Of a stretch of 64,000 bases of DNA, positions 11,410 to 46,409 are shown in pieces. Position numbers and translations under genes: made by a program. Below the pieces are notes generated by a model. It saw only the letters and a list, made by a program, of their open reading frames with translations. It made no database searches and was not told where the DNA came from. Source of the stretch: Chryseobacterium sp. c4a (GTDB taxonomy: Bacteria > Bacteroidota > Bacteroidia > Flavobacteriales > Weeksellaceae); the NCBI RefSeq assembly GCF_009900745.1, contig NZ_WXVU01000002.1, positions 310,001 through 374,000 of the forward strand, given 5' to 3'. Numbering within the stretch: the stretch's first letter is position 1; each line of letters opens with the position of its first letter.

Positions 11410-12678
11410 TTATTCAGGTTTTGCATTTTCAGACTCAGTAATTTTAAATTTCTTAGACACGATCATGATGATTACTCCGGCAATCATAAATGGAATAGAT
11501 AGAACTTGTCCGGTATTTAAACCTCCAATCTGGATAAATTCATCACCTTGCGGCTCTTTCAAGAATTCTACAAAGAATCTAATCGCCCAAAGGATGATAA
11601 AGAATAGACCAAATAACCATCCTTGCTGGTATTTTTTATCAGTTTTTCTATAAAGAATCCATAATAGAACAAAGAGTGCAACATAGCCTACCGCTTCAAA
11701 TAACTGACTTGGGTAGCGTGGAACTGTAAGTCCGTATTCACTGCTTTGTTGAGGGAAAAGTAAAGCAAACGGAGAATTAGGATCTGCCGGTTTTCCTACG
11801 ATCTCTGAATTGAAGAAGTTCCCCATTCTTACAAATGCACCTCCTAAAGCCACTACAATACCTAATCTGTCATATACCCAGAAAGGGTTTTTCTTGATGA
11901 TCTTAAAGGAGTAATAAAGAGTGGTAAGAATCAATGCAATGGTTGCTCCATGGCTTGCTAATCCTGAAAATCCGGTGAATTTAATTCCGTTTTTGGTGCT
12001 GATAGGAAGAAATACACTCCAGAAATCTTCTTTAAATAATTCCGGCTGATAGAAAATAACATGTCCTAATCTTGCACCAAGAATAGTTCCAATTAAAGTC
12101 CATGTGAAAAGAGGTTCCAGGTATTTTTGATTAACATGGTCAATTTTAAAGATTCTGGTCATTAAAACATATCCAAAACCAAATGCAAAGACAAACATTA
12201 AGCTGTAAAAATGTAAGGTAAACACTCCAAGATGAATTCCCTTAGAAGGATCCCATATTTTAAAGGATGTTTTAAGAGCAACTTTATCAGATTCAGCAAT
12301 AGGTTTTGCAGATTTTACCGCATATTTAAATGTTGTAATATTATCTTTGGTAACCGCAGCGTTGATCAGTTTGAAGTTTTTATCGAAAAACTGGTATTGC
12401 GATTCCTTGAATCTTGCCAGTGTTGAAGAACTGTAAGTGTAATAAGCAGGCTCAAAATTGGATTCATTAAGGATAACCAGAACATTGTCTTTAATTCCTC
12501 TATCCGGAAAAGCACTAAGGTCTCCCAATTCTGTCGTAGAATAGATTTTTACAGGAACATTGTTGCCGTTGATATCTAAAGTTCCGTCAGATAAGCCTCC
12601 AGGGTATTCCTGTGCAAAAAGGCACTGAGTAACCAATGCAAATATGACAAGGTAAATTCTGAAAAAAATATTACTCAT
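11410..12678 (-). CDS. lgt: Prolipoprotein diacylglyceryl transferase with N-terminal exported extension
   Basis: The protein has 422 residues. Residues from about 150 on form the Lgt core, which moves diacylglycerol from phosphatidylglycerol to the lipobox Cys. It carries GARLGHVIFYQPELF, SHGATIA, the Lgt signature RMGNFFNSEIVG (Arg284) and PRYPSQLFEA. Typical Lgt proteins are 260-300 residues. Here about 145 residues precede the core: a signal-peptide-like segment (LVIFALVTQCLFAQ), then a soluble stretch with no motif I recognise. yidD lies 26 nt upstream on the same strand. Confidence 0.93.
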   Translation of the reverse strand: MSNIFFRIYLVIFALVTQCLFAQEYPGGLSDGTLDINGNNVPVKIYSTTELGDLSAFPDRGIKDNVLVILNESNFEPAYYTYSSSTLARFKESQYQFFDKNFKLINAAVTKDNITTFKYAVKSAKPIAESDKVALKTSFKIWDPSKGIHLGVFTLHFYSLMFVFAFGFGYVLMTRIFKIDHVNQKYLEPLFTWTLIGTILGARLGHVIFYQPELFKEDFWSVFLPISTKNGIKFTGFSGLASHGATIALILTTLYYSFKIIKKNPFWVYDRLGIVVALGGAFVRMGNFFNSEIVGKPADPNSPFALLFPQQSSEYGLTVPRYPSQLFEAVGYVALFVLLWILYRKTDKKYQQGWLFGLFFIILWAIRFFVEFLKEPQGDEFIQIGGLNTGQVLSIPFMIAGVIIMIVSKKFKITESENAKPE

Positions 12679-12704: not shown

Positions 12705-12956
12705 TTATTTATGGTTGTGTTTTGGGGGAACAGGGTCATAGCCACTTCCTCCCCAAGGATGACATCGTAAAATCCTCTTAAATCCCAGCCAAAATCCTTT
12801 AAATACACCATGAACCTGTAAAGACTCTATCATATAATGAGAGCAGGTAGGTTCGTAACGGCAATTTTTAGGAAGTAGGGGCGAGATGAACCATTGGTAA
12901 AATTTTATCAAAATTACCAAAGGAAATGTAATGATTTTATTGAATGTAAGTTTCAA
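12705..12956 (-). CDS. yidD: Membrane protein insertion efficiency factor
   Basis: The protein has 83 residues from a TTG at 12956, the normal YidD size. A longer reading from 13067 would add 37 hydrophobic residues, overlap rarA and pass through the -7 box at 12964. The core motifs are [31 protein letters not shown] and the end GGSGYDPVP. YidD assists membrane insertion with YidC. It precedes lgt in a probable two-gene operon. Confidence 0.88.
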
Positions 12957-12963
12957 AACAATG

Positions 12964-12971
12964 CAAAAATA
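12964..12971 (-). promoter_or_regulatory. -7 box of yidD-lgt
   Basis: TATTTTTG on the minus strand ends 7 nt before the TTG start. It supports the short yidD start and a near-leaderless transcript. Confidence 0.55.
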
Positions 12972-13058
12972 GGGTAAAAAAATGAAAATTAGTTTAATTT
13001 TGTTATAAGTTTCAGAGCGTAGAAATCTGAAATATTGATCTAAAAAAATAAAAGTACT

Positions 13059-14336
13059 TTGAATCAAAATATTCCATTAGCAGAGAAATTAAGACCTAAA
13101 ACACTGGAGGATGTATTGGGACAGGAGCATCTTACTGGTGAAAAAGGGACGATCAGGAAGATGATCGAAAATAATACTCTGAATTCCCTTGTCTTTTGGG
13201 GGCCTCCGGGAACAGGAAAGACTACATTGGCAGAAATTATTTCTGAAAGCTCAGGACGAAAATTTTATAAGCTATCAGCCGTTTCTTCGGGAGTGAAAGA
13301 TGTTCGTGATGTGATTGATGATGCTAAAAAACAGAATTTGTTTTCAGGAAAATCACCAATTTTATTTATCGATGAGATTCACCGCTTCAACAAATCCCAG
13401 CAGGATTCTCTATTGCATGCTGTAGAGAAAGGCTGGATTGTCTTGATTGGAGCTACTACAGAAAACCCAAGTTTTGAGGTGGTGTCTGCCTTACTTTCCA
13501 GGAGTCAGGTGTATGTACTGAAAGCTTTAAGCTATGAAAAACTTGAAGAGCTCATTGATATTGCTTCTGAAAGATATAATAAAGACGAAGGAACGGATTT
13601 TAAAATTCTGGAAAAGGAAGCCTTCATTCAGTATTCGGGCGGTGACGCAAGGAAATTGATCAACTCTGTAGAATTGGTTTTAAATCAGTATAAAAATTCA
13701 GAAACCAAAGAGATCATCAATTCAGATGTATTGGAAGTACTTCAGGAGACGATGGCCTTGTATGATAAAAATGGTGAACAGCATTATGATATCATTTCAG
13801 CGTTTATCAAATCTATGCGTGGAAGTGATCCCAATGGAGCAGTCTATTGGTTGGCAAGAATGATTGCCGGAGGTGAAGATATTAAGTTTATTGCAAGAAG
13901 AATGCTCATTTTAGCTGCTGAAGATATTGGACTGGCAAATCCTAATGCATTGGTGATTGCCAATAACTGTTTTCAGGCTGTAAATGTTATTGGAAATCCT
14001 GAAGCAAGAATTATTCTCAGTGAGACTGCTGTATATCTGGCTGTTTCTCCTAAAAGTAATTCCGCATATATGGCGATTAATGAAGCGCTAGCATTGGTAA
14101 AACAAACGGGGAATTTACCTGTGCCACTTCATTTAAGAAATGCGCCTACTAAGTTGATGAAAGATATGGATTATGGAAAAGAATATAAATACGCCCATTC
14201 TTACGAAGGTAATTTTGTAGAACAGGATTTTCTTCCGCAGGAGATCAAAGATGTGAAATTATATGAGCCTGGAAATAATGCTACAGAGAAAAAAATCTAT
14301 GAAGAGCTTAAGAAAAAATGGGGAAAGAAATATTAA
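13059..14336 (+). CDS. rarA: Replication-associated recombination protein A, AAA+ ATPase
   Basis: The protein has 425 residues. The Walker A motif is GPPGTGKTT (48-56) and the Walker B motif is LFIDEIHRF. The C-terminal MgsA region has [17 protein letters not shown] and [10 protein letters not shown]. RarA (MgsA) acts at stalled replication forks. The start is a TTG: the essential N-terminal [10 protein letters not shown] begins at once and no ATG is available. The TTG overlaps a degenerate -7 box (TACTTTG), so the mRNA start is uncertain. Confidence 0.94.
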
Positions 14337-38448: not shown

Positions 38449-38631
38449 ATGCATTGCATACTATCGTGTAAAATATTGAGGTGTATATTTTTAACTAAAA
38501 ACGGTTTCGTAATATACATAATTTTATCATAATTTATATTAAAATTATAATAATTCTAATTTTTTTTTAAATTGCAAGACTGGCTAAGGGCCGGATTTAA
38601 GACTGAAAAACGAAACTATAAAAATAAAATT

Positions 38632-41475
38632 GTGAAGAATTTTACAACGGTATTAAAAATAGCGCCTGCTTTTTTACTGGCAAGTACAGTAATGCACGCG
38701 CAGACTAAGGATTCTACCACTAAGGAAAAGAAGATTGATGAAGTAGTATTAATTGGGTATGGCGCTAAAAAGAAGTCGGATTTAACAGGTTCTGTAACTG
38801 CTGTTTCTGAAAAAGACTTTAATAAAGGAGCAATTGTATCTGCAGATCAATTAATTAACGGTAAAGCACCAGGGGTGAGAATTACCAGTGATGGTGGAGC
38901 TCCCGATTCAAAACCCAATATAAGGATTAGAGGAGGTGCGTCTTTAACGGCGAATAACAATCCGCTAATCGTAATTGATGGAGTTCCTTTAGATTCTGGT
39001 AATCCTGCGGGGGTTTCCAATCCGCTATCTTTAGTAAATCCAAATGATATTGAATCATTTTCGATCTTAAAAGATGCTTCTGCTACTGCCATTTATGGTT
39101 CAAGAGCTTCCAATGGGGTTATTATTATTACCACGAAGAAAGGGTCTTCAGGAAGAATGAGAATCAATTATAGTGGAAATATTTCGATAGGAAAGGTTAC
39201 CAAAACTATCGACGTGATGGACGGGCCTACTTTTGAGAAATTTATAAATGAATATAATCCAACTTATGCTAGTATGCTAGGGGTTACAGAAAATGGAAAG
39301 CAAACCATGTACAATACCAATTGGCAGGATGCGATTTTCAGAACTTCTGTTTCTACGGATCATAATCTAAGTATAAGATCTAATTTGTTTAAATCAATTC
39401 CTGCAAGATTTTCATTTGGATATAATAATACACAAGGGATTGTAAAGACAAATGATTATGATCGATACACAGCGTCAATGAAGCTGACTCCAACTTTATT
39501 TGATAATCATTTAAAAGTTGATATTAATATAAAGAATATTTTCTCCAACAAAAATACAATCGATGCAGATGGAGCAATTGGATCAGCAATAACAGCAGAT
39601 CCTACGAAGCCTATATATAATCAGGATGGAAGTTATTATCAGACTTTTAACGGATATGTTATGGCAGGAGCAAGAAATCCTGTTGCGATCTTGATGCAAC
39701 GTACAAGGCCTGAAAAAGTACAAAAGTTCCTTGGAAATGTTGAATTAGATTATAAAATGCATTTTTTGCCGGATTTAAGGGCTGTTGTTAACTTGGGAGC
39801 AGAGTCTTCTTATGCAAAAATTCGTGAAGTGTATGGAGATAATGCTTTACAGTCTTACAGAACTGTTTACCAGAATAATGTTGCTGTAGGTGGAGTTTAT
39901 AATCCAGGACTGAATTACGGTGAAGAGCAGAATATTTTCAACAAACTATTGGATGCTTATTTGGTGTACAGTAAAAAGTACGATGACAAGTTTATTTCAA
40001 AGTTTGATGTTCAGGGAGGATATTCTTATCAAAACTTTGATAATAAAGGGTCGAAACAATTATTTAATATGGATGATCCGTCAGGTGTTCGTCAGGAATC
40101 TCCGTATAATAAATATATTAACAATTACAGAAATGTATTAAATATCCAGTCATTCTTTGGAAGAGCAAATATAGATATCCAGAATAAATATTTATTCACA
40201 TTGAGTTATCGTGCTGATGGCTCCTCCCTTTTCCCTTCAAATAAAAGATGGGGGCACTTCCCGGCAGCAGCTTTTGCATGGAAACTGAATGATGAGAAGT
40301 GGATGGAAAACTCAGGATTCTCAGAATTGAAATTAAGATTAGGATGGGGGAAAACAGGACAGCAGGACATTACTGGATCTGCAGGATTCTATCCTTATAA
40401 TCCTTTATATGAAATCGGAGATACCAGATATTTCTATTTCCCAAGAACTATTTTGCCGAATGGAGCTATTATTCCTGAATTATTTACAGCCCTTCCATAT
40501 AACCCATACTTAACCTGGGAAAAAACAACTACTTATAATGCCGGAGTGGATTTTGGAACTAAAAACCGAAGAATATCCGGATCCATAGAGTATTATTATA
40601 GAAAAACAACAGATTTATTGGCCAGAGTACCTTTCCCATCAGGTCAGATGCTTTCAAATGAGTTTATTGATAATGTAGGAAGTCTTACAAATAAAGGTTT
40701 TGAAGCCTCTTTTAATGTTAATCCTATAAAAACACAGAATCTAAATTGGGATCTGAACGGAAACATCGCTTATAACATAGGAACAGTAGATGATTTGAAA
40801 GGAAGAGACAAAGTAGGGGCTAATGAATCTTCTCTTGCATTTGCAGGAACAGGGGTTCTTTTAGCTTATCATGCCGTGGGGCAACAGCCTTACTCTGCAT
40901 GGGTATACCAGCAGGCTTACGACAGCAATGGAAGAGTGATTCCTGGTGCTTTTGTAGATAAAAATGGAGATGGGATCATCAACGATGCAGACAAATCTTT
41001 TGTGCCTCTGAGACCTAAATGGACGTTTGGATTCGGAACATCTTTAAATTATAAAAATTTTGATTTATCAGCTAGTTTTAGAGGGCAGATAGGAGGAAAG
41101 GTTTATTATGCTGCGAGAGTAAACAGAGGATATACAGAAGCTTCTAACCCAGTAAACAGTAATAGTTTGTTCAATGTTCTTAATTTTTATGATGGAGCAG
41201 CAGATCCGAGATTCAAAACAAAAGGAGATGCAGAAGGGTTATCCGATTACAACTTGCATGATGCAACTTTCTTACGTTGTGAGAACATTACATTAGGATA
41301 TAAGTTTGATAAGTTGTTTAAAGGTACAAGTCTAAGAGTTTATGGTGCTGTTAATAACGCATTTGTTATTACAAATAAATATGTGGGTCAGGATCCTGAG
41401 AACTTCAACGCGATAGATGCCAACTTCTATCCTAGACCTAGAATATACACTTTTGGAGTAAATCTTGATTTTTAA
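38632..41475 (+). CDS. susC: SusC/RagA family TonB-linked outer membrane transporter
   Basis: The protein has 947 residues from the GTG at 38632, which begins a signal peptide (KNFTTVLKIAPAFLLASTVM). A TTG at 38572 would add 20 hydrophilic residues. The SusC box IDEVVLIGYGAKKKSDLTGS opens the plug, followed by LIVIDGVPLDSGNPAG and ATAIYGSRASNGVIIITTKKG. The barrel ends YTFGVNLDF. There is no N-terminal carboxypeptidase-like domain. It imports glucan oligosaccharides with SusD, 12 nt downstream. Confidence 0.95.
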   Translation: MKNFTTVLKIAPAFLLASTVMHAQTKDSTTKEKKIDEVVLIGYGAKKKSDLTGSVTAVSEKDFNKGAIVSADQLINGKAPGVRITSDGGAPDSKPNIRIRGGASLTANNNPLIVIDGVPLDSGNPAGVSNPLSLVNPNDIESFSILKDASATAIYGSRASNGVIIITTKKGSSGRMRINYSGNISIGKVTKTIDVMDGPTFEKFINEYNPTYASMLGVTENGKQTMYNTNWQDAIFRTSVSTDHNLSIRSNLFKSIPARFSFGYNNTQGIVKTNDYDRYTASMKLTPTLFDNHLKVDINIKNIFSNKNTIDADGAIGSAITADPTKPIYNQDGSYYQTFNGYVMAGARNPVAILMQRTRPEKVQKFLGNVELDYKMHFLPDLRAVVNLGAESSYAKIREVYGDNALQSYRTVYQNNVAVGGVYNPGLNYGEEQNIFNKLLDAYLVYSKKYDDKFISKFDVQGGYSYQNFDNKGSKQLFNMDDPSGVRQESPYNKYINNYRNVLNIQSFFGRANIDIQNKYLFTLSYRADGSSLFPSNKRWGHFPAAAFAWKLNDEKWMENSGFSELKLRLGWGKTGQQDITGSAGFYPYNPLYEIGDTRYFYFPRTILPNGAIIPELFTALPYNPYLTWEKTTTYNAGVDFGTKNRRISGSIEYYYRKTTDLLARVPFPSGQMLSNEFIDNVGSLTNKGFEASFNVNPIKTQNLNWDLNGNIAYNIGTVDDLKGRDKVGANESSLAFAGTGVLLAYHAVGQQPYSAWVYQQAYDSNGRVIPGAFVDKNGDGIINDADKSFVPLRPKWTFGFGTSLNYKNFDLSASFRGQIGGKVYYAARVNRGYTEASNPVNSNSLFNVLNFYDGAADPRFKTKGDAEGLSDYNLHDATFLRCENITLGYKFDKLFKGTSLRVYGAVNNAFVITNKYVGQDPENFNAIDANFYPRPRIYTFGVNLDF

Positions 41476-41487
41476 AATTTGACACAC

Positions 41488-43080
41488 ATGAAACTTAATA
41501 AATTTAAAATAATACTATTATCATTCGCTTTAGTTTCTACAACTTCATGTCTGAATGAATTGAATACAGAGCCTGAATACCTTTTAACTTTAGAGCAGCT
41601 CCTTGAATCACAGCCTAACGCTGCCAATGGTCTTTTAGCAAAAGTGTATGCGTCACTATCAATGTCAAGTGCAAAAGGGCCCGGTGAAGCAGATATTACA
41701 GGAGATGACAAAGGAGAAACTGTTTTTCTGAGAGGGATTATTAATCTTGAAGACTTTACTGCTGATGGAATGAAGAACAGATGGGGTGATAACGGGCTGG
41801 ATCAGTTAACAACTACCACGAAATGGACTTCTGATAATAAGTTTTTCAGATATCTTTTTGATAGAGTATACTATACTGTGCCTCAAGCAAATGCATTAAT
41901 TGATGCTTTTGGGAAAGCTAATATTAGTAATAAAGAACAATACATTGGTGAACTAAGATTTATCAGAGCTTTTGCATATTTTTATATGATTGATTGTTTT
42001 GGAAAAGGGGTAATTGTTACAGAAAAAGACCTTGCCAATCCAACGCCTAAAGAACAGGCATCAAGAATAGAACTATTCAAGTATGTAGAAAGTGAATTGT
42101 TGGCTATAGAACCTACTATCGCCAGTAAAACAGAATATGGTCATGTAAACAAAGCAACAGTACAGATGCTGTTATCCAGACTGTATCTTAATGCTCAGGT
42201 ATATACGGGTACAGCAAGATGGAATGATGCTGCTACATATGCCAAAAAAGTAATTGATGAAGGAGGGTATACTTTAGATACCAATTTTGTAAGAATGTTT
42301 TCCGCAGACAATAATACTTCTCCTGAGATTATTTTCCCATTAATTGCCGACCCGATCGGGACACAAAGTTATGGTAACTCTACTTATATCATCAATGGAA
42401 GTACCGGAGGATCTCCTTCTACTTTAAATCCTGCTCTTCTTGGTATTAAAGGAGATGGATGGGGAGGTCATAGAGCTTCAAAAGCTTGGTATGGCCTTTT
42501 TGGAAACAGTCTTACTGATTACAACGGTGGTAGTGCTAATGCTGTAGCTACTACTCTAGATCAAAGAGGAAAATTATTCTGGCAGACAGGTCATGAATAT
42601 GAAATGACGGATTACAAAACATGGACAGATGGTTATCCTTCAACAAAGTTCAGAAATTTAAGAACATCAGGGCCGTCAGAAACAACTGATTTCTCAGGAG
42701 CAGATTTTCCTGTATTCAGATTGTCAGAAGCATATCTTACCTATGCAGAATGTGCAATCAGAGGAGCTTCTACAGCAAACTTAGGACAGGCTTTAACTTA
42801 TATGAATGAGCTGAGAGGGAAAAGAACAGCTTCTGCAATCAACGCAGGTAATCTTACCTTGGATTTCATTTTAGCGGAAAGAGCAAGAGAATTCAACTTG
42901 GAAGGACAGAGAAGAACTGATTTAATTAGATTTGATAAGTTTACAGGAGGTTCATACCTATGGCCTTGGAAAGGAGGGGTGAAAGATGGAACTGCAATTT
43001 CGTCTAATTATAATGTGTTTCCTATTCCGAATACAGCCTTGTCTTCTAATCCAAATTTAACACAAAATCCTGGGTATTAA
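41488..43080 (+). CDS. susD: SusD/RagB family nutrient-binding lipoprotein
   Basis: The protein has 530 residues from the ATG at 41488; a TTG three codons earlier is less likely. The lipobox is TTSC around residue 18. TPR-like helices include NKEQYIGELRFIRAFAYFYM, and the C-terminus has FILAERAREFNLEGQRRTDLIRFDK, a RagB/SusD hallmark. It caps the SusC barrel on the cell surface and binds the glycan. Confidence 0.95.
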   Translation: MKLNKFKIILLSFALVSTTSCLNELNTEPEYLLTLEQLLESQPNAANGLLAKVYASLSMSSAKGPGEADITGDDKGETVFLRGIINLEDFTADGMKNRWGDNGLDQLTTTTKWTSDNKFFRYLFDRVYYTVPQANALIDAFGKANISNKEQYIGELRFIRAFAYFYMIDCFGKGVIVTEKDLANPTPKEQASRIELFKYVESELLAIEPTIASKTEYGHVNKATVQMLLSRLYLNAQVYTGTARWNDAATYAKKVIDEGGYTLDTNFVRMFSADNNTSPEIIFPLIADPIGTQSYGNSTYIINGSTGGSPSTLNPALLGIKGDGWGGHRASKAWYGLFGNSLTDYNGGSANAVATTLDQRGKLFWQTGHEYEMTDYKTWTDGYPSTKFRNLRTSGPSETTDFSGADFPVFRLSEAYLTYAECAIRGASTANLGQALTYMNELRGKRTASAINAGNLTLDFILAERAREFNLEGQRRTDLIRFDKFTGGSYLWPWKGGVKDGTAISSNYNVFPIPNTALSSNPNLTQNPGY

Positions 43081-43101
43081 TTTTTAAAACTGAAACTGAA
43101 A

Positions 43102-44172
43102 ATGAAACATTTTTTTAAAATATTCACAATAGCCGTTCTTGGGATTTTGGTTGCTTCGTGTAAAGATGAAGATCAGGCAATGCTTAATGAAACGGCTCAG
43201 AGTAAAATTTCATCAGATAAAACGACCATAGTTTTAGATAAAACTCATTTAGATGATACAGCAGTTAATTTTACATGGGCAAAATCAACTTTCGATTTGG
43301 CTGTAGTTTCTGCTCCAAAAATTGAAATAGGACTTAAAGGAAATAATTTTAAAGACGGTAAGTCTTTAGATGTTGTAACGTCTCCTTATTCAATGACCAA
43401 TAAACAATTAAACACATTGTTATTGAGTTTAGGAGCTGCTCCTAATGAAGTTAACCAGATAGAAGTAAGGGTAAGGACAGTGGTAGGAACAGCATCATTT
43501 TATTCGAATGTAATTACATTAGCTGTAACACCTTATATTTTAGGACCTATATATAATTATACAGATCTTTATCTTATTGGTGATGCTACTGCTGCAGTTT
43601 GGGATAATTCAGCAACCAATGCAAAATTATATCCTTTACAAAAAACGGCTACCGCTGGAGTGTACTCTTATACAGGATATTTTGCAGCAGGAGGATTTAA
43701 ACTTATTCAAACGCCAGGATCCTGGGATACTCAATATGGATTAGGGGCATCTGCCGGAGCACTGCTTGCAGGAGGAGGTTCTTCAAATATTCCAGTAGCT
43801 ACAGCAGGATATTATAAATTGACCATTGATACTAATGCATTAAGCTATACATTAATCGCTATACCTGCTCCAACTAAAGTGTATACTACTATTTCTATGA
43901 TTGGATCAGCTTCAGGAGATTGGAGTACTGATGTAGATATGGAAAAATCAACTTTTGATCCTCATATCTGGGTGAAGAAAAAAGTAAGCTTAAGTTCAGG
44001 AGAATTTAAGTTCAGAGCTGATCATGATTGGGGAACAAATTGGGGAGTTTCTAAAGAGTTTTTTGGAGTAGCAGACCTAGGGGGCGGAAATATTCCTGTA
44101 AGTGAAGCTTTCAAATATGATGTGTATTTCAATGATGTCACAGGAGAATATTCAGTGATCCCAGTATTCTAA
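43102..44172 (+). CDS. SusE/SusF-like outer membrane starch-binding lipoprotein
   Basis: The protein has 356 residues. The lipobox is VASC around residue 20. The N-terminal SusE domain (KISSDKTTIVLDKTHLDD, NFTWAKSTFD) is followed by two carbohydrate-binding-like repeats, each with GDATAAVWDNS or GSASGDWSTDVDM and a FKLIQTPGSWDTQYG / FKFRADHDWGTNWG pair. It binds alpha-glucan at the surface. The position after susCD supports this. Confidence 0.9.
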   Translation: MKHFFKIFTIAVLGILVASCKDEDQAMLNETAQSKISSDKTTIVLDKTHLDDTAVNFTWAKSTFDLAVVSAPKIEIGLKGNNFKDGKSLDVVTSPYSMTNKQLNTLLLSLGAAPNEVNQIEVRVRTVVGTASFYSNVITLAVTPYILGPIYNYTDLYLIGDATAAVWDNSATNAKLYPLQKTATAGVYSYTGYFAAGGFKLIQTPGSWDTQYGLGASAGALLAGGGSSNIPVATAGYYKLTIDTNALSYTLIAIPAPTKVYTTISMIGSASGDWSTDVDMEKSTFDPHIWVKKKVSLSSGEFKFRADHDWGTNWGVSKEFFGVADLGGGNIPVSEAFKYDVYFNDVTGEYSVIPVF

Positions 44173-44200
44173 ATTAATAAAAATCAAATTAAAATAAAGC

Positions 44201-44233
44201 AAAGTGCTGCTTTGGGCAGCACTTTATTTTTTT
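44201..44233 (+). terminator. Terminator after the SusE-like gene
   Basis: The stem AAAGTGCTGC / GCAGCACTTT is followed by a T run. It may reduce read-through to the GH97 gene. Confidence 0.85.
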
Positions 44234-44252
44234 AAGTTAATAAATAGTCATT

Positions 44253-46409
44253 ATGAAGAAAATTACAGTTGGAGCGCTCTTGCTCTCAATGATGTTTGTA
44301 GGTGTGAAAGCACAATCTTTAAAATCACCGGACGGTAAATTTGAAATGAATTTCCAATTGAAAGATGGAGTTCCTTTCTATAACCTGAAATACAATGGTG
44401 CGGTAGTAGTAGAAGATTCTAAATTGGGATTGAGATTATTTAAAGACACAGCCATTAAATTTGCTTCTGAAATTGCCAAACCAGAAGACGCAAAGTACGA
44501 CCTTAATAACGGTTTTGCGAAGGTAGATGAAAAAAGAGACTCCAAAAATGAAACCTGGCAGCCGGTTCTTGGAGAAAAGAAAAATTATATCAATAACTAC
44601 AATGAATTAGCGGTAACGCTAAATCAGGCTTCTACAGATAGAAGTATTGTTGTGAAATTCAGATTATTCAACGATGGACTTGGATTCAGATATGAATTCC
44701 CACAACAAAAAAATCTTAATTATTTCGTTATTAGAGAAGAAGACTCTGAAATCGATTTTCCTACAGATATGAAAGCTTGGTGGATCGTAGCAGATTACGA
44801 CTCTCAGGAATATCAGTATCAGGAAACAAAAGTTTCTGAAATTCCGGCAAAATGGGATAAAGCATATGACGCTAATGCTTCACAAAGTTTAGTAAAAAAT
44901 GCAGTTCAGTCTCCATTAATGCTTAAAAAAGAAGGAAAATCACCTTTATACATCAATGTTGCTGAAGCAGCAGTATTGGATTATCCGGCTTCACATCTGG
45001 AAGTAGATGCACAGAACTTTAAGTTCAAAACACATTTAACGGCTGATAGACAAGGAGCAAAAGGATATATCCAAACTCCGTCAGTAACGCCTTGGAGAAC
45101 AATTATCGTAGCTCCAAAAGCTGAAGAGGTAATGGATTCTAAAATGATCTTTAACCTGAATGAGCCTACGAAATATACAGATACTTCTTACATTCACCCT
45201 ACAAAATACATGGGAGTTTGGTGGGAAATGATCATTGGAAAATCTCAATGGGCGTATTCTACAGCTGAAAATGTACACTTAGGTAAAACTGATTTTACAA
45301 AATTGACTCCAAACGGAAAACATGCTGCAAACAATACAAAAGTTAAAGAATATATCGACTTTGCTGCTGAAAACGGATTCCAGGGATTATTGATCGAAGG
45401 TTGGAACATCGGTTGGGAAGACTGGTTCGGTCACTCTAAAGAATTTGTTTTTGATTTCGTAACTCCTTACCCGGATTTTGATATCAAAATGTTGAATGAC
45501 TATGCTCATTCAAAAGGAATTAAACTAATTATGCACCATGAAACTTCAGGTTCTGCAACGAATTATGAAAGATGGGCAGATAAAGCATTCCAAACGATGA
45601 ACAAATATGGGTATGATGCTGTAAAAACAGGATATGTAGGAGATATTATCCCAAGAGGGGAACACCACTATTCCCAATGGACGATCAACCATTATTATAG
45701 AATTGCTGAAAAAGCAAACGACTATAAAATCATGGTAAATTCTCACGAATCTGTACGTCCTACAGGAGAAAGCCGTACCTACCCAAATTATATTTCTGCA
45801 GAAGCAGCTCGTGGAACAGAGTATGAAGCATTTGGAGGAAACAAGCCTGATCACCAAACAGTACTTCCATTTACAAGATGGATGGGAGGTTCTATGGATT
45901 ACACGCCGGGAATTTTCCAAACGAAGTTAGATTATTATTTCCCTGGAGATCAGCGTTTCGTGAAAACGACATTAGCTAAGCAGCTTGCCTTGTATGTAAC
46001 GATGTATATGCCGCTTCAAATGGCTGCCGACCTTCCTGAAAACTATAAAAAGCATATGGATGCATTCCAGTTTATCAAGGACGTAGCCGCAGATTGGGAT
46101 GATACGAAAATCTTATCTGCAGAACCGGGAGATTATGTAATCACTGCCAGAAAAGCAAAAGGTACAGAAAACTGGTTTGTAGGAGGTATTACCGATGAAA
46201 ACAAACGTGAGTACACTGTAGACTTCTCATTCCTGGATAAAGGGAAAAAATATGAAGCAACAATCTATGAAGATGGAAAAGATGCTGATTATATAGATAA
46301 TCCTCAAAGCTATAATATCTACAAGAAAGAGATTACAAGCAAATCGAAAATTAATTTTAAAATGGTACGAAGCGGTGGTTTTGCCATCTCAATCAAACCG
46401 GTAAAATAA
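44253..46409 (+). CDS. susB: GH97 alpha-glucosidase, SusB-like
   Basis: The protein has 718 residues with a signal peptide. GH97 acidic residues are visible at Glu430 (IMHHETSG), Glu499 (VNSHESVRP), Glu517 and Glu523 (SAEAARGTEYEAF). Their spacing equals that of Glu439, Glu508, Glu526 and Glu532 in Bacteroides SusB, with a constant offset of 9, which indicates an inverting alpha-glucosidase. It probably trims imported maltooligosaccharides in the periplasm. A strong terminator precedes it, so it may have its own promoter. Confidence 0.95.
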   Translation: MKKITVGALLLSMMFVGVKAQSLKSPDGKFEMNFQLKDGVPFYNLKYNGAVVVEDSKLGLRLFKDTAIKFASEIAKPEDAKYDLNNGFAKVDEKRDSKNETWQPVLGEKKNYINNYNELAVTLNQASTDRSIVVKFRLFNDGLGFRYEFPQQKNLNYFVIREEDSEIDFPTDMKAWWIVADYDSQEYQYQETKVSEIPAKWDKAYDANASQSLVKNAVQSPLMLKKEGKSPLYINVAEAAVLDYPASHLEVDAQNFKFKTHLTADRQGAKGYIQTPSVTPWRTIIVAPKAEEVMDSKMIFNLNEPTKYTDTSYIHPTKYMGVWWEMIIGKSQWAYSTAENVHLGKTDFTKLTPNGKHAANNTKVKEYIDFAAENGFQGLLIEGWNIGWEDWFGHSKEFVFDFVTPYPDFDIKMLNDYAHSKGIKLIMHHETSGSATNYERWADKAFQTMNKYGYDAVKTGYVGDIIPRGEHHYSQWTINHYYRIAEKANDYKIMVNSHESVRPTGESRTYPNYISAEAARGTEYEAFGGNKPDHQTVLPFTRWMGGSMDYTPGIFQTKLDYYFPGDQRFVKTTLAKQLALYVTMYMPLQMAADLPENYKKHMDAFQFIKDVAADWDDTKILSAEPGDYVITARKAKGTENWFVGGITDENKREYTVDFSFLDKGKKYEATIYEDGKDADYIDNPQSYNIYKKEITSKSKINFKMVRSGGFAISIKPVK

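Follow-up and report, generated by a model that had tools for sequence, protein, structure and literature searches.

An apparently exported N-terminal domain on Lgt in one family of Bacteroidota, and residues of the Lgt head that track it

Introduction

Lgt carries out the first step of lipoprotein making. It is essential in most Gram-negative bacteria and a target for antibiotics, and the usual view is of a bare membrane enzyme. The Bacteroidota as a whole are rich in lipoproteins. The closest described system is the Lgt of E. coli, for which the available portion of PMC4728403 sets out the roles of the key residues. As described there, the periplasmic head (E151-P197) contains a sheet to which the N-terminal strand of the enzyme contributes, and the enzyme is inactive once nine N-terminal residues have been removed.

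A second described system bears on the part of the protein that precedes the Lgt core. In Bacteroidetes, substrates of signal peptidase I (SPI) have an N-terminal glutamine, a regularity known as the Q-rule (PMC5837995 and PMC10653852, in the portions available). The common feature of these proteins is a signal-peptide-like segment followed by A/S-Q. The accessible part of PMC5837995 states that pyroglutamate has not yet been tested for inner-membrane proteins.

We analysed a window, by which we mean the whole stretch of 64,000 nucleotides from Chryseobacterium sp. c4a (GCF_009900745.1, contig NZ_WXVU01000002.1, positions 310,001 to 374,000), in which lgt encodes 141 residues without counterpart in the E. 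coli chain ahead of the Lgt core. The reading that we favour, and hold to be probable, is that of a working Lgt carrying an exported periplasmic domain that docks on, and is co-adapted with, the head of the enzyme.

Results and discussion

The lgt gene of the window and its Lgt core

The features of the locus, all on the minus strand, are as follows.

11410..12678, minus strand: lgt, a 422-residue Lgt with an apparently exported N-terminal domain (open reading frame; PF01790; TIGR00544)
12613..12678, minus strand: signal-peptide-like segment, residues 1-22, with an A-Q end that puts the Q-rule site at residue 23 (sequence; conservation of Q23)
12256..12612, minus strand: alpha/beta domain of no known family, residues 23-141, presumably periplasmic (AlphaFold2 model; no meaningful Pfam, NCBIfam or PDB match; dN/dS)
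11413..12255, minus strand: Lgt core, residues 142-422, from the segment matching the N-terminal strand of E. coli Lgt (phmmer; key residues)
11710..11805, minus strand: periplasmic head domain, residues 292-323 (E. coli E151-P197; limits from the available portion of PMC4728403, mapped by alignment)
11725..11727, minus strand: codon of T318, the best tracker of the extension among core positions (co-variation)
11779..11787, minus strand: codons 298-300, for residues of the head that follow the extension more loosely, the A298 of the window being the unextended state (co-variation)
12705..13067, minus strand: yidD, directly upstream of lgt (PF01809, E 1.5e-31), which may in fact begin downstream of the TTG listed for it

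The reading frame opens with ATG and encodes 422 residues. The preliminary description had placed the start of the Lgt core near residue 150, behind a 145-residue N-terminal part, and the latter figure holds to within a few residues: the match to PF01790 (Pfam LGT) is restricted to residues 148-407 (181.5 bits, cut-off 24.9), that to TIGR00544 spans residues 142-412 (147.1 bits, cut-off 118.9), and the mature domain would comprise residues 23-141. Residues 1-147 match no NCBIfam family and no meaningful Pfam family (best E 0.052, below the cut-off).

The core aligns with E. coli Lgt (5azb) over the same residues 148-407 by phmmer (E 2.9e-23), and the full-length model finds the E. coli structure (5azb/5azc) by Foldseek with E 1.7e-9. 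Window residues Y158, H243, R284, N287, N290, E292, E328, R367 and E371 correspond to E. coli Y26, H103, R143, N146, N149, E151, E202, R239 and E243. These nine key residues are kept in 28 of 28 or, with one gap, 27 of 28 extended representatives, and in all 26 unextended ones, i.e. those whose Lgt lacks the N-terminal domain. Two further residues of the E. coli network, Y235 and R246, are replaced by L363 and K374 in the window, a pair of positions that we do not treat as defining Lgt. The same L/K pair occurs in 27 of 28 extended representatives (one gap) and in 26 of 26 unextended ones, so it is a variant of the lineage rather than a mark of the extension. Nine of the 21 extended genomes checked have no PF01790 protein besides the extended one, within a set of 24 genomes mostly picked because an earlier search had given a single match. 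With both curated cut-offs exceeded and the nine key residues present, the sequence argues that the extended protein is a working Lgt.

The genome of the window encodes three PF01790 proteins. Besides the extended lgt, there are a 278-residue paralogue that has no extension (L001, 1462-2298) and a divergent protein of 250 residues (L003, 1459-2211).

The upstream part is translated and maintained

A trivial account of the extension would be that translation truly starts near residue 150 and that the upstream part belongs to another frame or gene. The unextended relatives do begin at the core; in sister genera the core of the unextended Lgt starts near the start codon. In the window, however, no ATG, GTG or TTG occurs in frame between residues 51 and 152, a scan that rules out an internal start near residue 150 for these three codons. 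Furthermore, the upstream ATG at residue 1 opens the frame in 80 of 80 named relatives. An ATG lies within -40 to +15 of the core start in only four of the 80 (at -40, -37, -37 and -1), and when GTG and TTG are also admitted, such codons are found there in 48 of the 80, at places that differ.

The upstream part is also under selection. Across 170 pairs of moderately diverged relatives, residues 23-141 have a median dN/dS of 0.115 (from the 156 pairs in which dS exceeds 0), residues 1-22 one of 0.120 (155 pairs) and the Lgt core one of 0.017 (170 pairs). Residues 23-141 are thus under purifying selection. Together with the start codons, these values argue that the extension is coding and is maintained, more loosely than the core. 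A start near residue 150, which the preliminary description itself had named as the finding that would undo it, was therefore not borne out, and we give that account hardly any credence.

Export and the Q-rule

Residues 1-22 form a short hydrophobic segment with a final alanine, and residue 23 is glutamine. All 81 of the 81 proteins aligned have this glutamine, in keeping with the segment having been described from the outset as signal-peptide-like. A wider set of 153 extended sequences was also inspected. Among the 138 that were scanned with a pattern (the first A/S/G-Q pair, which may fall a few residues early), 136 have A-Q or S-Q near the expected place; the remaining two are one A-E and one that the pattern missed, where A/S-Q is visible by eye. 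The 15 sequences beyond the pattern scan show A/S-Q by eye, and one C-S-Q is found among the extended sequences checked in this manner.

The extended Lgt thus has the sequence that marks Q-rule substrates: a hydrophobic N-terminal segment, a small residue and a glutamine. It is a polytopic inner-membrane enzyme, unlike the Q-rule proteins treated in the available portions of PMC5837995 and PMC10653852. We infer from these sequences that the extension is exported and cleaved before Q23. The N-terminal segment would take the added N-terminus across the membrane by way of Sec. Cleavage ahead of Q23, probably by signal peptidase I, would then leave a folded domain of about 120 residues at the periplasmic face of the inner membrane. 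The extended Lgt may thereby serve as a test case for the Q-rule on inner-membrane proteins.

A predicted separate domain with a fold not recognized in the PDB

Over the 119 residues of the domain, the window protein is 30-44% identical to 13 sequences from other genera and 38-80% identical to seven of the same genus, in an alignment of 21 rows from which L066, L072, L081, L082 and L053 were left out. Several polar residues are conserved in this alignment. AlphaFold2 predicts residues 23-144 (81 sequences) with a mean pLDDT of 91.3 and a pTM of 0.86, and with secondary-structure elements in the order E-E-H-E-H-E-E-E. In the full-length model, block means of pLDDT are 68-93 over residues 31-140, and the Lgt head is poorly predicted (pLDDT below 50 over residues 290-323). 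The models indicate that residues 23-141 would form a separate, confidently predicted domain.

Comparison of this predicted domain with known structures gave no match at E < 0.001, either in the PDB by Foldseek (best E 0.063) or in a viral structure library, and nothing at E < 1 in the PDB by sequence; Pfam again contained nothing meaningful. The best Foldseek match is an AAC(2') acetyltransferase of the AAC(2')/GNAT fold (E 0.063). By VIA-align, in which Z below 8 may mean a common arrangement only, this protein gives Z 5.7 (99 residues aligned, rmsd 3.9) and a SepF-like protein gives Z 5.3 (74 aligned, rmsd 2.5). What the domain may have in common with AAC(2') acetyltransferases and with SepF is a general alpha/beta layout. 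A thioredoxin-like fold had been guessed from the strand order, and none was found among the matches listed by Foldseek and VIA-align. We found no published report of the domain in the openly accessible literature, a scope that leaves most subscription journals aside. The initial suggestion of a soluble domain without a known motif, acting as an accessory to Lgt, agrees with the present data. The domain is predicted as a separate unit, it is conserved and selected, and the key residues of the core behind it are kept.

Distribution and gene neighbourhood

The family sample comprised 246 genomes, 245 of which gave a match. These fall into 32 genera (a further one, g6, has no match), and representatives were read for each genus. 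The domain is present in 16 of the 32 genera (g1, g3, g4, g9, g14, g15, g16, g18, g20, g22, g23, g27, g30, g31, g32 and g33) and absent from the other 16 (g2, g5, g7, g8, g10, g11, g12, g13, g17, g19, g21, g24, g25, g26, g28 and g29). In Chryseobacterium (g1), the genus of the window, the match begins at query residue 1 in 99 of 99 genomes, and in a single one it is cut at its far end by the end of the contig. In g14 the domain is only partly visible, at the end of a contig.

Two loci stand apart. In g15 the extension (L053, genome G014) is strongly diverged but of similar size, scores 9.0 bits by the domain profile and precedes a fast-evolving Lgt. The Lgt L250 comes from a genome coded as Elizabethkingia (G093, g23) and has no extension; in RpoB/RpoC trees this genome lies apart from two other genomes coded Elizabethkingia, and the case is either a misplacement or a further loss of the domain.

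With a profile of the domain, no believable copy came up beyond the family or apart from Lgt in samples of 395 genomes from the order, 295 from the class and 395 from the phylum; these samples overlap, and the best first-look candidates of each genome were scored. Several weak hits were judged to be chance matches. They are proteins that we take to be Ku-like, which share a short (N)IPVK(I/L)(Y/F)S stretch; a long dehydrogenase-like frame with a short match; a protein with a short YTLLNKNF stretch; a protein of g26 with a short match; and a protein presumably of the PpiC/SurA kind (E 3.6e-4), again matching over a short stretch. One further hit of the domain profile contains internal stops (G687, L105). 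The extension had been proposed as a lineage feature, perhaps linked to heavy lipoprotein traffic. The first part fits what we see, as the domain is confined to one family in the samples searched and, within it, to half of the genera. The link with traffic gains no support from this distribution.

The neighbourhood of the gene is nearly constant. The yidD gene is the same-strand upstream neighbour of lgt in 79 of 82 rows, extended and unextended alike; the misses are L001 (the paralogue), L064 and L083 (contig end), and two of the rows (L002 and L004) are one place. This arrangement bears on the possibility that the domain docks or recruits some other envelope protein (LspA, Sec/YidC or a chaperone), and that the changes in the Lgt head described below are a side effect of a bulky neighbour. 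A domain that folds on its own and bears several conserved polar residues, its presumed location on the periplasmic side and yidD as a near-constant neighbour would all suit such a role. However, yidD also stands beside unextended lgt and is thus not specific to the extension, and no partner was found, and we regard recruitment as rather unlikely.

The unextended Lgt proteins of g26, g24, g25, g12 and others share the order of yidD and lgt with the extended ones, and their nearest cores are about 80% identical. Since relatives with such similar cores lack the domain, the basic reaction as such does not depend on it. At 24 of the 26 unextended loci, no more than 70 bases separate yidD from the first Met in the lgt frame, and no recognizable remnant of the domain was found upstream of lgt in any of the 26 (best profile score 4.4 bits). 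Among the controls for this search, eight of nine extended loci scored at least 58 bits; the ninth, from g15, scored 9.0. In an earlier search, three unextended loci gave read-through matches with stops.

These data also touch on whether the domain is a nearly neutral add-on, harmless and often lost, with head changes that accommodate its loss. A dN/dS some five to seven times that of the core, the absence from half of the genera and the lack of recognizable remnants at the unextended loci are what such an add-on would leave. Its dN/dS of 0.115 and its retention in every one of the 99 Chryseobacterium genomes instead speak of upkeep, and of the accounts that accept the domain as real we hold this one to be the least probable.

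Residues of the Lgt head track the extension

We return to the reading of a domain that docks on the Lgt head. The columns of the core were compared between 27 extended, 13 unextended and three nested unextended representatives, with g15 and more distant genera left out. Seven core columns show low overlap between the states, and five of them are in the head (298, 299, 300, 317 and 318). The head of an unextended Lgt mostly has A298, P299 and I/V318, whereas that of an extended Lgt mostly has V or A, D and T at these positions. The clearest column is 318, with threonine in 26 of 27 extended and none of 16 unextended representatives. Among the extended rows of the 29-genome RpoB/RpoC set described below, g33 has isoleucine and g15 has valine at this position.

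Further sequences, which are mostly from close Chryseobacterium with some species represented twice, agree with this division (126 extended and 30 unextended). At position 318 the extended ones have 124 T and 2 S, and the unextended ones 27 I, 2 V and 1 T. Position 299 is D in 119 of 126 extended and P in 26 of 30 unextended sequences. At position 298 the extended sequences are divided between V (66) and A (60), and 26 of the 30 unextended ones have A. The window itself has A298 and Q311, unlike the V and M commonest among extended proteins in a 29-genome set.

The association was also examined with phylogenetically independent pairs on the best RpoB/RpoC tree (29 genomes, nine pairs). Residue 318 changes with the extension in a mean of 8.2 of the nine pairs and never against it, and it ranks first of the 189 variable core columns, a position first chosen on sequences that overlap the set used for the pairs. 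It is also first on 60 of the 60 bootstrap trees tried. The second and third ranks are held by 298 (6.7 of nine) and 311 (5.4 of nine), both in the head; residue 299 scores 3.5 of nine. The link of residue 298 is weaker than its rank suggests. As a group, the 22 head columns outscore the 167 others (p 0.013), also when only columns with entropy of at least 1 are compared (nine in the head against 71 in the rest, p 0.0065), although neighbouring head columns are not independent of one another. With matched entropy, 14 of 21 head columns lie above the rest. Columns 142-290, which lie between the extension and the head in the gene, score at most 4.1 of nine. These low values argue that linkage within the gene, or simple replacement of it, is not an easy explanation.

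History of the domain and possible exchange of alleles

The history of the domain was compared with trees of RpoB and RpoC, built from 30 genomes and then from 29 after a long outlier row (G012) had been dropped. Presence of the domain requires 11 switches on the tree of 30 genomes and nine on that of 29 (9-11 and 7-9, respectively, on bootstrap trees). Well-supported branches force four and two of these. Shuffled labels gave values as low as the observed one in 439 of 500 cases (30 genomes) and in 239 of 500 (29 genomes). Presence of the domain is thus patchy on the RpoB/RpoC tree and no more clustered than shuffled labels, and its history is not readable from that tree. The tree is weakly resolved, and its well-supported branches alone leave two independent pairs, which are too few for a sign test.

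The tree of the Lgt core gives fewer switches, three with 54 rows and six with 76 rows when the head columns are removed. The latter tree rejects the extended rows as a single clade (p-AU 0.01). One locus of g26 (L050, genome G182) groups with g11 by Lgt (support 100/99) and with g26 by RpoB/RpoC (100/100), and is likely to be a horizontal transfer of an unextended lgt.

The two sets of trees raise the possibility that long and short lgt alleles have been exchanged horizontally between genera, and that the differences in the head were passengers of whole-gene exchange with no meaning for contacts. The lower number of switches on the Lgt core trees than on those of RpoB/RpoC (9-11 switches, 29-30 rows), the lack of clustering on the latter and the probable transfer of L050 all lend themselves to this account. 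Against it, the association is concentrated in the head, and the 149 codons between the extension and the head show little of it. In addition, a species-like placement of the unextended g24 and g25 is not rejected by the core without the head (p-AU 0.44 and 0.32), and in g11 the Lgt core agrees with RpoB/RpoC, both placing it near g20 and g33. That allele exchange explains part of the pattern is a serious rival to our reading; that the head differences are nothing but passengers we think improbable.

A domain probably tethered beside the Lgt head

The co-variation of head residues, above all of residue 318, points to docking of the domain on the head. We consider it most likely, on the evidence of these sequences, that the domain docks there and that domain and head have become adapted to each other. 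The extension runs up to the part of the core that corresponds to the N-terminal strand in E. coli Lgt, and by homology this would tether the domain beside the head. The end of the domain would lead directly into the segment matching this short strand, which would place the domain on the head or next to it, over the active-site cavity. Its part would be non-catalytic, tuning or steadying the head and the way in which the prolipoprotein enters or leaves. The domain may thus affect substrate entry, product release or stability.

A bolder version, which we put forward tentatively and think unlikely to hold in full, is that the domain is a regulator built into an essential and otherwise highly conserved lipoprotein enzyme, acquired or dropped several times over. 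This periplasmic regulator, with a fold unrecognized in the PDB, would clamp or gate the head over the active-site cavity. Residue 318 would then be a molecular switch, required to be T with the clamp and I or V without it. Genera with and without the domain, together with the head residues that track it, offer a direct route to asking what the Lgt head does.

Other long PF01790 proteins and a further locus of the window

Many Bacteroidota of other families have a further, long type of PF01790 protein (L188-L214), with frames of about 385-458 residues from stop to stop. In the 27 sequences read (L215 left out), the extra length lies inside the membrane part. By eye it looks like a tandem duplication of the TM2-arm2-TM3 module of E. 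coli Lgt, and hhalign between the repeats (27 sequences) gives a probability of 97 and E 1e-10 over 58 columns. Its signature is approximately GR(I/L/V/M)GC...GDGDWG instead of GRxGNFxNxE. Of eight further Bacteroidota Lgt with long frames, seven have a Met at the start of the core (the eighth, L224, was left out). The class survey of long Lgt covered the matches listed, and N-terminal domains of other kinds may exist elsewhere.

Elsewhere in the window, at 38572-46409, genes for a SusC-like receptor, a SusD-like protein and a GH97 glycoside hydrolase are clustered, and by Pfam they form a polysaccharide-use locus.
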